Made by a program: the position numbers and the translations under genes | Notes under the pieces: generated by a model | Databases searched by the model: none | The model's input: the letters and a program-made list of their open reading frames with translations, nothing else | Told to the model about the DNA's origin: nothing | Shown: positions 2,877 through 51,509 of the stretch, piece after piece | Numbering within the stretch: the first letter of the stretch is position 1 | How the letters are laid out: every line of letters starts with the position of its first letter | Assembly: GCA_004376055.2 (NCBI GenBank) | Contig: CP049016.1 | Coordinates: 2,976,001 to 3,040,000, forward strand | Source of the DNA: Nitrospirales bacterium LBB_01 | Lineage (GTDB): Bacteria > Nitrospirota > Thermodesulfovibrionia > Thermodesulfovibrionales > Magnetobacteriaceae | Reading direction: 5' to 3' | Length of the DNA: 64,000 nt

Positions 2877-3052
2877 ATTGCATATGCAGTTAGCTCCGCA
2901 AACAAAAAAACTGGATTCCTGCCTTCGCAGGAATGACAAGAAAAAGAAATTGCCCCCCCTTTGTCATTCCCGCCTACGAGCGGGAATCCAGTTCTTTTAA
3001 CTGTATCATTTGCTGAATGAAAAAATTTACAGGAGTTAACTTAATAAGCATT
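2877..3052 (-). mobile_element. Miniature transposable element, copy 1 (176 bp)
   Basis: A non-coding element with imperfect 21-bp terminal inverted repeats (outer ends ATTGC... and ...GCATT) and two internal palindromes built on ATTCCTGC/GCAGGAAT and ATTCCCGC/GCGGGAAT. It is flanked by the 8-bp direct repeat TTCTTTTT at 2869-2876 and 3053-3060, the mark of a transposition event. It has no coding capacity, so a transposase elsewhere must move it. It lies in inverse orientation relative to the copies at 6499, 25946 and 33056, and 76 bp upstream of the Roco-TIR gene, so it may affect that gene's promoter. Confidence 0.85.
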
Positions 3053-3128: not shown

Positions 3129-5975
3129 ATGGAACTAACGGCAGAGTATAAAGTCGAGGATGATGCAACAGTACCAGTAGTGGATGTCTTTCATTTAATC
3201 CATGAAAACCATGCAAGAAATGCGTCAGAACTAAATTTATCATACATGAAATTAACAGAGTTGCCGCCGGAAATTGGAGAGCTTACACACTTAAAAGAGC
3301 TTTATATTCATAATAATCGTCTGATGTCGCTTCCCTCAGAAATTGGAAACCTTACTAATTTACAAATTCTCTGGGTTGGTAACAATTACCTTACAACTCT
3401 TCCCGCAGAGATTGGAAACCTCATAAACCTGAAAGTCCTGCGCATAAACAACAATAACCTTACAGCGTTGCCGATGGAAATTGAAAAATTAACAAAACTG
3501 CAAACTTTATGGATTAATGAAAATCTTCTGACAAGCCTGCCCTTAGGGATTGAAAAATTAACGAAACTACAAACTCTCTGGCTTAACGGCACACTTTTGA
3601 CAGAGTTGTCCCCTGAGATTGGTAAACTCACAAATTTAAAATTGCTGTCTCTTGATGGTAACCGCTTGAAAGCACTTCCTAAAAGTATAGAAAACCTTAT
3701 ACACTTGCAAGAACTGCTGCTTAACTACAATATGTTTGATGAGTTTCCGCCTGAGATTTTAAAACTTGTGAACTTAACTGTGCTTTCCCTAAGCGGTAAC
3801 GCTCTTAAAAAACTCCCGCCGGAAATTAGAAAAATTAAAAAACTGCAAACTTTTAATATCAGCTCTAACCAAATAACAGCTATCGTCCCTGACATAATAA
3901 ATCTCACCAGTCTTACAAAGTTAAACATAGACAACAACCCGCTTGTAACTCCTCCGGTTGAAATTGCTTTGAGGGGGGTGGATGCTGTGAAAGAATATTT
4001 CAGGTCTCTGAAAAAGATAGAAAATCATTATACTAACATCGCCAAAAGGCCCAGTGACAAGGCTGAAATAAATCCCTCAGAGAAAATATATGAGGCAAAA
4101 CTTCTGATTGTTGGTCAGGGCGGAGTTGGAAAAACAAGTATTGTAAGACGACTAATTGACAACACTTTCTCGGATACCGACTACCCCACAATGGGAATAG
4201 AAGTTAAGCAAATGACTTTAAAACATCAGGACTTGCCGGAGTTGAAACTAAATGTCTGGGATTTTGGCGGTCAGGAGATATATCACGCAACGCATCAGTT
4301 TTTCCTGACAAAGCGCTCTGTGTATATGCTTGTGTGGGACGCCAGACAGGAGGATGAGTACGGGCGGCTTGAGCACTGGCTAAACGTGATAAGAGTGTTT
4401 GGCGAAGACAGCCCTGTTATCCTGGTTATCAACAAGTGTGAACAGTACCCGGGCGATATTAATCTGAAGGACCTTAAGGAAAAATTTCCTGGAATAATAA
4501 AGGGTTTCTATTGCATCAGCTGTAAAACCCCAGGGAAAGGGCATGACAGTTTTGATAAGCTAAAAGCCGATATAGCAAAAATTGCAAGCGAACTTCCGCA
4601 CATGGGCAGTGTGTGGTTAGAGCCGTGGATAAAAATCAGAGAGAAATTTGAAAATGACCCCCAAACGCATATTCCTTATGGGCAATTCCATAGTCTGTGC
4701 GTAGAGCAAAACATAGACGAAAAAGAGGAAACGCTGCTTGATGACTACCTTCACGATTTGGGAGTATTTTTACACTTCAAGGATGACATTATTTTACAGA
4801 ATACGATAATAATAAAACCCTCATGGGTAACAAACGCCGTGTATAAAGTAGTGTCTTCAAGAGCGGTTTTAGAGAGAGAGGGAATTTTATATGAGACAGA
4901 TTTGCCGGATATTTGGAAAGACGGTTATCCACATGAAACGTATGGTACTCTTTTAAGTTTAATGAAGAACTTTGAGCTTTCGTTTTCCATTGAGGGGACA
5001 AGAAATCACGTAATAGCAAGCGCTTTGGCATTGGATAGCATAGACATTGAGTATAACCTCAGAGACAGCAGCAAGGTGATATATGACTATAATTTTTTGC
5101 CTAAAACAATCATCCCCAGATTAATCGTCAGAGCGCATGATATGATTACACGAAGAAACGGTAAATATTTATGTTGGCGCACAGGCGTGATATTAGAGCG
5201 GGTCACAGACGGTATTGAAACACGTGCCTATATAAAGGCATATCCAAACGACAAGAAACTTGAAATAGTTGTTAATGGTAAAAACAAACTGGAATTTTTT
5301 ACTATCATACGAAACCACCTTGAAAATATTCACAAAATAACCAAAAAACTTGATGTTGAGTTAAAAATCCCGTGCGTTTGCAACACTGATTGTAAACACA
5401 TGTTTAAGTATTCATTTCTTATTAAATTACAGGAACAAGGCATAAACGATGTTTTTTGTGAAATAACAGCAAATTCGGTATCAATCAGAAAACTTTTTGC
5501 AGGCATTAAACGAGAAGGGGGACAGAGAATGACTGACCGTGAAAGAGGCCATACTGATGCGTTAAAAGAGGAGACGTTTGACGTGTTTATCACCCATTCA
5601 TCAAAGGATGTAGGCTTTATAAAGAACAATATCTTGCCGGATTTCAGAAGCAAAGGAATTCATTATTGGATTGACAGTGAACAAATATACCCAGGTGATC
5701 AAATTACTAAAAAGATAGATACCGGCTTGCGCAACAGCAAATATGTTTTGGTCTGTCTAAGCACAAATCTTGGCAAATCCAACTGGAGTAGAGCAGAATA
5801 TGCGTTTGTTTTACACCAGTTTTTTAAAGAAACTACAGACAAGAAAATTATTCCGTTAAAGCTGGATAATTGTAAGGACAGTGATATTCCTCCTTTGCTC
5901 AGTGATATAAAGTGGACTGAGTATTCTGACACGAAATCATACGTTGAATTGCTGGATTTCCTTAAAAATAACTAA
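3129..5975 (+). CDS. Roco family protein with C-terminal TIR domain (LRR-Roc-COR-TIR)
   Basis: A large cytoplasmic signalling protein of 948 residues. Residues about 32-283 are eleven leucine-rich repeats of 23 residues. The Roc GTPase follows with P-loop GQGGVGKTS (about 329-337), G3 WDFGGQE and G4 NKCE. A COR dimerisation region fills about 490-800. A TIR domain covers 815-948 and keeps the Glu of the SNWSRAE motif, the position used by NAD-cleaving TIR enzymes. No kinase domain is present. The likely model is ligand sensing by the LRRs, nucleotide switching by Roc-COR, and NAD hydrolysis or signalling by TIR; this is inference. A -10-like TATGAT ends 10 bases before the ATG and there is no Shine-Dalgarno, suggesting a leaderless message. 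The cyclase-FHA gene follows after 20 bp. Confidence 0.93.
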   Translation: MELTAEYKVEDDATVPVVDVFHLIHENHARNASELNLSYMKLTELPPEIGELTHLKELYIHNNRLMSLPSEIGNLTNLQILWVGNNYLTTLPAEIGNLINLKVLRINNNNLTALPMEIEKLTKLQTLWINENLLTSLPLGIEKLTKLQTLWLNGTLLTELSPEIGKLTNLKLLSLDGNRLKALPKSIENLIHLQELLLNYNMFDEFPPEILKLVNLTVLSLSGNALKKLPPEIRKIKKLQTFNISSNQITAIVPDIINLTSLTKLNIDNNPLVTPPVEIALRGVDAVKEYFRSLKKIENHYTNIAKRPSDKAEINPSEKIYEAKLLIVGQGGVGKTSIVRRLIDNTFSDTDYPTMGIEVKQMTLKHQDLPELKLNVWDFGGQEIYHATHQFFLTKRSVYMLVWDARQEDEYGRLEHWLNVIRVFGEDSPVILVINKCEQYPGDINLKDLKEKFPGIIKGFYCISCKTPGKGHDSFDKLKADIAKIASELPHMGSVWLEPWIKIREKFENDPQTHIPYGQFHSLCVEQNIDEKEETLLDDYLHDLGVFLHFKDDIILQNTIIIKPSWVTNAVYKVVSSRAVLEREGILYETDLPDIWKDGYPHETYGTLLSLMKNFELSFSIEGTRNHVIASALALDSIDIEYNLRDSSKVIYDYNFLPKTIIPRLIVRAHDMITRRNGKYLCWRTGVILERVTDGIETRAYIKAYPNDKKLEIVVNGKNKLEFFTIIRNHLENIHKITKKLDVELKIPCVCNTDCKHMFKYSFLIKLQEQGINDVFCEITANSVSIRKLFAGIKREGGQRMTDRERGHTDALKEETFDVFITHSSKDVGFIKNNILPDFRSKGIHYWIDSEQIYPGDQITKKIDTGLRNSKYVLVCLSTNLGKSNWSRAEYAFVLHQFFKETTDKKIIPLKLDNCKDSDIPPLLSDIKWTEYSDTKSYVELLDFLKNN

Positions 5976-5995
5976 TAAAATGAGGATTACCTAAT

Positions 5996-6667
5996 ATGCT
6001 AAATTTTGAGGTTCAACTTCACAAAAGGTTGCGCATATTTACAATAGAGTTGTGTGCTTTTATTGCTAAAAAATTGAGAGAGCTTTACGGTGAGCACTGG
6101 CGTGATAAACTAAGTACACAGCTTCAGTCCTCACTTTTTTTTGCAGATCTCAATGAGGACAACACCCGTAATGATCAGATTAATTTTGAGCAAATATCTC
6201 ACTTGATAGAGGATTTATGGAACGACTGTTTTTCAACCGTTTTTAAAAATAAAGCCGAAACCATGAAAAATCTTAGCGATATAAATAATATTTTTGTAAC
6301 AGTTAAATTTACACGGGATAGTGTAACCGATAATGACGTATGGAGAGCTTTGAATTCAATGGCAAGCTTAATAAAACATATTAATAAAGATGCAGCACTT
6401 GAGATATTTGATATTATCAATAATGAGGTTATACATAGCAGCTCTGAAACGTCAACACCTAAAACTGTTGAGATACCGCCAACAGAGGAAATATTTTTAA
6501 TGCTTATTGAGTTAACTCCTGTAAATTTTTTTCAGTCAGCAAATGATACAGTTAAAAGGACTGGATTCCCGCTCGCAGGCGGGAATGACAAAGGGGGTCC
6601 ATTTCTTTTTTTGTCATTCCTGCGAAGGCAGGAATCCATTTTTTTGTTTGCGGAGCTAACTGCATAG
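5996..6667 (+). CDS. N-terminal half of the split gene, HEPN-like domain
   Basis: Residues 1-about 168 are native; the remaining 55 or so are read from the inserted element and are spurious. The native part is predicted helical, with a basic N-terminus, a YGEHW motif near residue 33, a later LIEDLWNDCF segment and a conserved-looking MASLIKHI helix. This pattern resembles Swt1-type HEPN domains (YG..W, then I...W..VF, then RN..aH). However, the RNxxxH nuclease motif is not there: the matching stretch reads TRDSV. If it is a HEPN domain it is probably a binding or scaffolding version. The resemblance is by eye only. Confidence 0.55.
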   Translation: MLNFEVQLHKRLRIFTIELCAFIAKKLRELYGEHWRDKLSTQLQSSLFFADLNEDNTRNDQINFEQISHLIEDLWNDCFSTVFKNKAETMKNLSDINNIFVTVKFTRDSVTDNDVWRALNSMASLIKHINKDAALEIFDIINNEVIHSSSETSTPKTVEIPPTEEIFLMLIELTPVNFFQSANDTVKRTGFPLAGGNDKGGPFLFLSFLRRQESIFLFAELTA

Positions 6668-6672
6668 GCAAT
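6499..6672 (+). mobile_element. Miniature transposable element, copy 2 (174 bp), inside a gene
   Basis: The ends AATGCTTATTGAGTTAACTCC and the reverse complement of the right end (ATTGCCTATGCAGTTAGCTCC) match at 16 of 21 positions. The 8-bp direct repeat ATATTTTT flanks it at 6491-6498 and 6673-6680. The internal palindromes match copy 1, in the opposite orientation. It interrupts the reading frame of the gene at 5996-7665. Confidence 0.9.
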
Positions 6673-6753
6673 ATATTTTTTAATCAAAATGACAACGCAC
6701 GTCACTCCGAGCCTCTCTCCATTGACGATATAAATAAGTTATTACAAGAGCGT

Positions 6754-7665
6754 ATGAAAATTGATAAGAAGCTGGAGGATAAATATAAAAAAGACATTGC
6801 TGTGATGTTTACTGATTTGAAGGGTTCCACCACACTTGCCGACGTTGAGGGAGACATTAGCGCTATGATTTTACTCCAAAAAAATAAAGAAATAATCATT
6901 CCAATAATCAGAAAGAACAAAGGAGTATTGGTAAAAACCATGGGAGACGGCACACTTTCTTACTTCACAAGCTCAAATGATGCGCTGGCCTCAGCAATTC
7001 AAATCATAGGTGATGCGGCACTAGCTAATAAAAATGTAAAGCCCGTCCACAGGCTAAATATACGTATTGGGATTCACAAGGGTAAGTGTATAATGGAGAA
7101 AAATGATATTTTTGGAGATGTGGTAAATGTCGCATCACGGTTTGAGAAATTAGCGGTTCCCTGTGAGATTGCACTTTCTGAGGATACCTATATCAGTTTG
7201 TGTCAAGAGTTACAATTAAGGTGCCAACTTGACACTATAACCAGCATAGACGGCAAGAAGGCGCCTTTCAAAATATACAGAGTACGTAATACCGAAGCGC
7301 TTCAGGAATCAGAAAAAAAATGTTACAACGCAGATTATATTCCGTACTCACTGCTAAAAGACAAATTGAATCCTCAGGAGGTGTTTTCCATAAACGCCGG
7401 AGAGCTTATTATCGGACGCTCATCTAAGTGTGACATTGTTCTTAAGGAGGAGTATATTTCAAGACAGCACGCTAAAATTATAAGAGACCATGATTCGGTA
7501 TTTATTGAAGACTTAAATTCTATGGCCGGAATTTGTATCAACGGTGAGAAAATTACCCGCCCGCGTAAATTAAAAAACGGCGATGAGATAAGGTTTGGTC
7601 ATAAAGTTATGATTTATGAAAATCCTATGGAGGAAGACGGCGGGTCAACTGTTCCAATCTTATAG
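6754..7665 (+). CDS. Class III nucleotidyl cyclase with FHA domain (C-terminal half of split gene)
   Basis: Residues about 10-180 form a class III cyclase catalytic domain. Visible are the first metal Asp (MFTDLKGST), the Lys and second metal Asp (VKTMGDG), and the transition-state Asn/Arg pair (VVNVASR). The Asp before VVN favours ATP over GTP, so cAMP is the likely product. Residues about 215-295 are an FHA phosphothreonine-binding domain with GRS, SRQH and ING motifs. The frame is open upstream into the inserted element, so ATG 6754 is only the first in-frame methionine. It ends 26 bp from a convergent minus-strand gene. A double cyclic-nucleotide-binding protein lies at 35070-36521, but no direct link is shown. 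Confidence 0.9.
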   Translation: MKIDKKLEDKYKKDIAVMFTDLKGSTTLADVEGDISAMILLQKNKEIIIPIIRKNKGVLVKTMGDGTLSYFTSSNDALASAIQIIGDAALANKNVKPVHRLNIRIGIHKGKCIMEKNDIFGDVVNVASRFEKLAVPCEIALSEDTYISLCQELQLRCQLDTITSIDGKKAPFKIYRVRNTEALQESEKKCYNADYIPYSLLKDKLNPQEVFSINAGELIIGRSSKCDIVLKEEYISRQHAKIIRDHDSVFIEDLNSMAGICINGEKITRPRKLKNGDEIRFGHKVMIYENPMEEDGGSTVPIL

Positions 7666-25945: not shown

Positions 25946-26191
25946 AATGCTTATTGAGTTAACTCCTGTAGATTTTTTTCAGTCAGCAAATAATACAGTT
26001 AAAAAGACTGGATTCCCGCTCGTAGGCGGGAATGACAAAGGGGAGAGGCGGGAATGACAAAAAAGGGAATGACAAAGGGGGGCCATTTTACAGGGGAATC
26101 CCCTTTAGGGGAGGTCATTCCTTTTTTTCTTGTCATTCCTGCGAAGGCAGGAATCCATTTTTTTGTTTGCGGAGCTAACTGCATAGGCAAT
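25946..26191 (+). mobile_element. Miniature transposable element, copy 3 (246 bp)
   Basis: Same ends as copy 2 (AATGCTTATTGAG at the left, ATAGGCAAT at the right) and flanked by the 9-bp direct repeat TTTACTTTT at 25937-25945 and 26192-26200. It is longer than copies 1 and 2 because the centre has extra GGGAATGACAAA units and a palindrome CAGGGGAATCCCCTTTAGGGG also found in copy 5. The right target copy contains the stop codon of mlaA, so the insertion spared that gene. Confidence 0.88.
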
Positions 26192-30058: not shown

Positions 30059-30139
30059 CTGGATTCCTGCTTTCGCAGGAATGACAAAAAAGTAAATGGC
30101 AACCCCCTTTGTCATTCCCGCCTACGAGCGGGAATCCAG
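30059..30139 (-). repeat. Degenerate or core-only copy of the MITE family (copy 4)
   Basis: Only the core is kept: ACTGGATTCCTGC/GCAGGAATGACA palindrome and CATTCCCGCC/GCGGGAATCCAG palindrome. The terminal inverted repeats and target duplications cannot be found. It lies between two genes of one operon, where the two hairpins could affect transcript processing. Confidence 0.7.
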
Positions 30140-32953: not shown

Positions 32954-33055
32954 GCTTTTATAAAACTCCCTGCGCTTTGCTTTTATCTCTGTGACCGTAT
33001 AGTACCATAAATAATATAAAAATTTGTTCAAAAACCTGTTTTGATAATTCAGAAT

Positions 33056-33260
33056 ATGCTTATATACTTAAGTCAGGTACATAGTTTTATGTTTGCTAAA
33101 GATACATTAAAAAGGACTTGATTCCCGCTCGTAGGCGGGAATGACAAAGGAGAGTGCGCTTTCCGTCATTCCCTTACAGGGGAATCCCCTTTAGGGGAGT
33201 GTCATTCCTGCGAAGGCAGGAATCCAGTTTTTTCTTTGCGGAGCTAAGAGCATAAGCAAT
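33056..33260 (+). mobile_element. Miniature transposable element, copy 5 (205 bp, diverged)
   Basis: The left end ATGCTTATATACTTAAG and right end GGAGCTAAGAGCATAAGCAAT match the family with more changes than copies 1-3. It is flanked by the perfect 8-bp direct repeat TTCAGAAT at 33048-33055 and 33261-33268. The centre shares the CAGGGGAATCCCCTTTAGGGG palindrome with copy 3. Confidence 0.82.
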
Positions 33261-51297: not shown

Positions 51298-51509
51298 ATT
51301 GCCTATGCAGTTTACTTCGTTAACAAAAGACTGGATTCCTGCCTTCGCAGGAATGACAAGAAAAAAAAGAATGACAGAAAAAAAGTATTCCCGCCTTTGT
51401 CATTCCCGCCTACGAGCGGGAATCCAGTCCTTTTTCCATTTTAAAAACATAGAAACCTGCATCTCTATAATCATGAAAACACTCTAACTGAGCTAACTGC
51501 ATAGGCAAT
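51298..51509. mobile_element. Rearranged copy of the MITE family (copy 6, 212 bp)
   Basis: Both ends are of the same type: the 22-bp arms at 51291-51312 and 51495-51516 are perfect reverse complements (centre ATTGCCTATGCAGTT). The arms extend beyond the element ends into flanking AAAAGAA/TTCTTTT. The core palindromes match copies 1 and 4. No direct target duplication is found. The symmetry suggests recombination between two inverted copies rather than a simple insertion. Confidence 0.75.

Follow-up and report, generated by a model that had tools for sequence, protein, structure and literature searches.

Bacterial MITEs are mostly intergenic and are also found in genes and operons, as in the case of Chunjie (PMC10969869). 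Chunjie, described in Geobacter uraniireducens (Genetics 2008, via PMC10969869), is 178–235 bp long and occurs in tens of copies, one of which disrupts an operon. The original paper states in its title that this insertion leaves the operon structure undisturbed. QMITE2 is associated with direct repeats of 7–11 nt (PMC10969869, PMC5896051). An intragenic bacterial MITE is already a known kind of event.

In this work, a MITE inside a coding sequence was analysed in a 64,000-nucleotide stretch (the window) of the genome of Nitrospirales bacterium LBB_01 (contig CP049016.1, positions 2,976,001 to 3,040,000). Like Chunjie, it is a short non-autonomous element with conserved ends and tens of copies, and the copies seen here measure 173–246 bp against 178–235 bp. 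Unlike the Chunjie insertion, which lies within an operon, the present one lies inside a coding sequence and shifts its frame; the two families are likened by description. The element also resembles Correia elements, QMITE2 and other REP-like MITEs in its size class (150–200 bp), in having inverted repeats and REP-like relatives, and in folding into strong RNA hairpins (PMC10969869, PMC5896051). On the other hand, the descriptions of Correia elements and QMITE2 set them apart from it by another host, by its 8-bp AT-rich target duplications and by its palindrome pair GGATTCC..GGAATGAC. The locus is a clean example of a gene broken by a bacterial MITE and still uncut in two sister species, and the break sits inside a MITE family expanded in one lineage.

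Structure of the element and of the interrupted gene

The element, the gene and the present-day open reading frames (ORFs) are arranged as follows, in window coordinates; G002 and G003 denote two members of the same genus.

5996–6498, plus strand: 5' part of the gene, encoding the HEPN_Swt1 domain and the first portion of the linker, codons 1–167 plus 2 bases (Pfam)
6491–6498: target site duplication, left copy ATATTTTT, 8 bp (read directly)
6499–6672, plus strand: MITE, 174 bp, with 48 matches in its own genome, missing at the orthologous site of G002 and G003
6499–6519, plus strand: left terminal inverted repeat AATGCTTATTGAGTTAACTCC, 21 bp
6563–6589, plus strand: REP-like palindrome 1 inside the MITE (pattern scan)
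6613–6637, minus strand: REP-like palindrome 2 inside the MITE (pattern scan), resembling an intrinsic terminator together with the T run that follows
6652–6672, minus strand: right terminal inverted repeat ATTGCCTATGCAGTTAGCTCC, 21 bp
6673–6680: target site duplication, right copy ATATTTTT, 8 bp (read directly)
6681–7665, plus strand: 3' part of the gene, remaining linker, class III cyclase and FHA (Pfam)
5996–6667, plus strand: present-day upstream ORF, 223 aa, the last ~55 from the MITE
6754–7665, plus strand: present-day downstream ORF from the first in-frame ATG, 303 aa, complete cyclase and FHA, weak ribosome-binding context

The initial annotation had placed a 174-bp element flanked by ATATTTTT at this position, and direct reading of the sequence agreed with all of its coordinates. 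The terminal inverted repeats are imperfect, matching at 16 of 21 positions. The element is short and non-coding and has no transposase gene; its sole frame is an accidental extension of the host-gene frame. As RNA it folds at –68.6 kcal/mol (z –6.9), and palindrome 2 with its T run has a terminator-like score. Possibly the MITE picked up this palindrome pair, which would then be a repeat unit in its own right. Seven columns differ between this copy and the subfamily consensus, six of them in a variable central tract. By its size, terminal inverted repeats, target duplication, copy number and empty sites in relatives, 6499–6672 is a bacterial MITE. Elsewhere in the window, a REP-like palindrome pair resembling that of the MITE is present at 30061–30137 without terminal repeats.

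Removal of 6499–6680 (182 bp, the MITE and one duplication) joins 5996–6498 to 6681–7665 in a single ORF that is open over 495 codons up to its stop codon, just as had been proposed for the ancestral gene. The insertion point falls at residue 167/168, in an AT-rich stretch of the linker region. An AlphaFold model of the intact G002 orthologue, of low confidence (four sequences behind it, mean pLDDT 53.7) and used for the secondary structure near the insertion only, places this point in coil, between a helical N-terminal domain that reaches residue 149 and a helix before the cyclase that begins at 182. The native start at 5996 is preceded by AGGA at a good distance. The ATG at 6754 lacks such a motif, and no earlier ATG, GTG or TTG start was found in that frame.

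Protein domains and active-site motifs

The HEPN-like, cyclase and FHA labels given earlier from the letters of the sequence were borne out by Pfam, which finds HEPN_Swt1 in the 5' part (1e-8, above the gathering score) and Guanylate_cyc (2e-18) and FHA (6.8e-22) in the 3' part. In the intact protein of G002, all three domains are found in one chain (1.4e-7, 3.9e-16 and 3.3e-20, respectively). Adenylate/guanylate cyclases with solved structures, such as 3mr7 and Ma1120, can be aligned to the cyclase part, its metal-binding and substrate loops included, and the alignment to 3mr7 shows that KTxGDG and DIFGD are kept. We take these to be adenine-type residues, that is, the Lys and Asp of adenylyl cyclases. 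The R-x(4-6)-H motif of HEPN ribonucleases is not maintained across the window protein and its homologues in G002, G003, G005 and G006: the window protein reads R-E-L-Y-G-E-H, G002 and G003 read L-E-L-Y-G-E-H and miss the Arg, and Asn replaces His in G005 and G006. Thus, ribonuclease action of the HEPN part appears unlikely.

Empty sites and homologues in relatives

The initial annotation also inferred an ancestral fused gene and pointed to related strains as the place to look for an empty site; both the fused form and the empty site were found. The joined protein shares 81% identity with an intact 494-aa orthologue in G002 and 80% with a fused ORF in G003 that is open to the contig end. At the DNA level, the alignments across the join are ungapped over 404 and 391 bp, respectively, with 83–84% identity. 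G002 and G003 thus hold the empty site, and the ancestral arrangement is seen directly. The gene order of G002 is that of the window (tilS, LRR/Roc/COR/TIR gene, HEPN/cyclase/FHA gene), and the synteny of G003 with the window is partial. Among 40 relatives, the HEPN part was found only in G002, G003 and, as distant homologues, in G005 and G006, and it is always fused to cyclase-FHA. The HEPN part had no match in the fourth member of the genus, G001, where only weak cyclase and FHA matches were obtained. Cyclase-FHA proteins without the HEPN part are encoded in G004, G007, G009 and G010 (loci L025, L027, L028 and L029), so the sequences indicate that such a piece is able to stand alone.

Expansion of the MITE family

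A BLAST search with the MITE gave 48 matches in its own 3.27-Mb single-contig genome (G000). The terminal repeats were also counted with a degenerate pattern, and the same pattern reversed served as control. In G000, the pattern has 150 matches on one strand and 152 on the other vs. 1 and 3 for the control. In three congeners, it occurs in 29/25, 20/20 and 15/13 places, with controls of 4–7. Because the congeners have only 13–29 matches per strand vs. about 150, the expansion belongs to the lineage of the window genome.

Forty copies were read with their flanks. The 8-bp target duplication is perfect in 18 of these and has one mismatch in 6 more, and the target sites are A+T-rich. Identical copies are present at different loci (L006/L007 and L013/L014), so the family moved recently. 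At least two further ORFs among the 40 copies are split by the MITE; their names were read from sequence motifs. At L006 (G000:C1:2835681-2835854), a Fic-family ORF would measure 387 aa without the element vs. 266 aa with it, and at L012 (G000:C1:193798-193973), a response-regulator ORF would measure 243 aa vs. 97 aa. This genome thus contains several such gene breaks, the one at 6499 among them.

More members of the family or of a sister family are present in the window at 25946–26191, 33055–33260 and 51298–51509, the first two at ORF ends and not in ORF middles. In addition, two identical MITEs that face opposite ways and share their outer flank were observed at L084 (G000:C1:1079800-1084800). 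Between them lie 3.4 kb with a sensor kinase gene that looks intact, and the pair forms a larger inverted repeat.

Age and consequences of the insertion

The dN/dS values from the codon comparison are 0.179 for G000–G002, 0.186 for G000–G003 and 0.171 for G002–G003. The same comparison upheld the earlier statement that both halves are free of further lesions. Constraint on the split gene has not been relaxed, and there has been too little time for measurable decay. Since dN/dS is the same as between the intact orthologues and no decay is seen, the insertion must be much younger than the species split. Its recent age, already proposed in the initial annotation, also agrees with the perfect target duplication and with the absence of the element from both congeners that have the gene. 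The insertion is documented in one assembly of the species, a single contig that is 99.87% complete.

The loss or change of function claimed at the outset can be divided. Translation from the native start is frameshifted and meets a stop at 6667, which makes loss of the fused protein very likely, indeed nearly certain, as judged from the reading frames. The downstream half keeps the whole cyclase-FHA part and may have residual or partial activity, so for this half the claim is less secure. Because a hairpin with a T run stands upstream and there is no good start site, the cyclase-FHA half is likely to be poorly expressed.

Proposed course of events and alternative readings

The target duplication and the empty sites show that a non-autonomous MITE of the amplified family entered the AT-rich linker stretch of the gene for the HEPN_Swt1/class III cyclase/FHA protein, with duplication of 8 bp at the target. 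We presume that a transposase recognizing the 21-bp ends of the MITE acted on it in trans, and the ordinary reading of such a duplication would be transposition of the cut-and-paste type with 8-bp staggered target cuts. The frame shift, as read from the sequence, gives about 168 native residues followed by about 55 MITE-encoded residues up to the stop at 6667. The cyclase-FHA half lies behind a strong hairpin whose T run is terminator-like, has no good start and is probably little expressed. The loss of the intact protein is recent relative to the split from the sister species. We consider this account as a whole, from the insertion of an amplified MITE to the recent loss of the intact protein, to be highly probable.

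It is also conceivable that the insertion resulted in gene fission, with a HEPN-like piece and a cyclase-FHA protein translated separately from the ATG at 6754, one or both of them functional. The downstream ORF, which begins just before the cyclase and contains complete cyclase and FHA domains, and the HEPN-less proteins of G004, G007, G009 and G010 speak for it, as does the lack of another lesion in either half, although a young insertion equally predicts lesion-free halves. The ribosome-binding context is poor at 6754 compared with the good one at 5996, and a terminator-like hairpin lies between the halves; fission is thus unlikely in our judgement. A chance in-frame join of two ORFs that had never been one gene could be entertained from the sequence alone, since a random deletion restores the frame in one of three cases. 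It is refuted by the fused forms in relatives, namely orthologues in G002 and G003 and distant homologues in G005 and G006, and its probability is negligible.

Two further readings concern the living cell. A family of more than 100 copies is able to confuse assemblers, and the gene might be intact and the repeat misassembled. This is extremely improbable given the completeness of the single-contig genome, junctions with a perfect 8-bp duplication typical of other copies and a private substitution in this copy. Alternatively, precise excision in part of the population might turn the gene on and off as a reversible switch. Exact removal does restore the frame, and the identical copy pairs at different sites suggest recent mobility. 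Nevertheless, bacterial transposons mostly excise imprecisely, the copies are spread genome-wide with no sign of regulated excision, and no transposase with matching ends was found among the DDE_Tnp_1, IS256, ISL3 and IS1595 families, which leaves such a switch very unlikely.

The source of the transposition activity presumed for the MITE insertion was sought by searching four genus members for DDE_Tnp_1, IS256 (Transposase_mut), ISL3 and IS1595 transposases and by looking for MITE ends near transposase loci. DDE_Tnp_1, ISL3 and IS1595 transposases were absent from G000, and its IS256-type (Transposase_mut) remnants had no matching paired ends. At the transposase loci inspected, no transposase lay between paired MITE ends, and the terminal-repeat matches of G001–G003 included no paired ends 0.8–4 kb apart. 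Two half-ends, one next to an IS5-like remnant (L079) and the other next to an IS256 remnant (L092/L094), were rejected as candidates and look like nested MITE remnants. The ends are reminiscent of those of IS4, a candidate that was dropped because the genome has no DDE_Tnp_1 transposase.

Neighbouring Roco-TIR gene

The interrupted gene is the last of a run that consists of tilS, an LRR/Roc/COR/TIR gene and the HEPN/cyclase/FHA gene. The following features lie upstream.

2877–3052, minus strand: second MITE copy, between tilS and the LRR/Roc/COR/TIR gene, target site duplication TTCTTTTT
3129–5975, plus strand: LRR–Roc–COR-A/B–TIR protein, 948 aa, intact, the upstream operon partner

Pfam matches of the LRR/Roc/COR/TIR protein are Roc (1.8e-31), COR-A (3.4e-36) and TIR_2 (5.3e-21), and its syntenic orthologue in G002 is 941 aa long. 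In three species of the genus, this gene is followed by the HEPN/cyclase/FHA gene within about 20 bp (3129–7665 in the window). The pairing is kept in G002 and G003 and is missing at the distant fused homologues (L099 and L100). We regard this conserved pair as a more interesting side observation than the break itself. As a tentative and rather doubtful suggestion, the two genes might form an undescribed signalling or defence module in which the cyclase and the NLR-like TIR protein cooperate, and which the MITE would have recently uncoupled or silenced here.

The closest described arrangement is Pycsar, an anti-phage system of a PycC cyclase and PycTIR, a TIR effector with a cyclic-nucleotide-binding domain (PMC11224242). 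As in Pycsar, a class III cyclase gene adjoins a TIR-domain gene (PMC11224242). In contrast, the TIR partner here is an LRR/Roc/COR protein in which Pfam detected no cyclic-nucleotide-binding domain, and membership in Pycsar was therefore rejected. Moreover, unlike in Pycsar, the cyclase here appears to retain the Lys and Asp typical of adenylyl cyclases. PADLOC models of PycC match the cyclase at 1.5e-9, as they would any class III cyclase.

In G002, the interval between tilS and the LRR/Roc/COR/TIR gene is just a 46-bp spacer with no MITE. The second MITE copy at 2877–3052 may separate the Roco gene of the window from tilS read-through.
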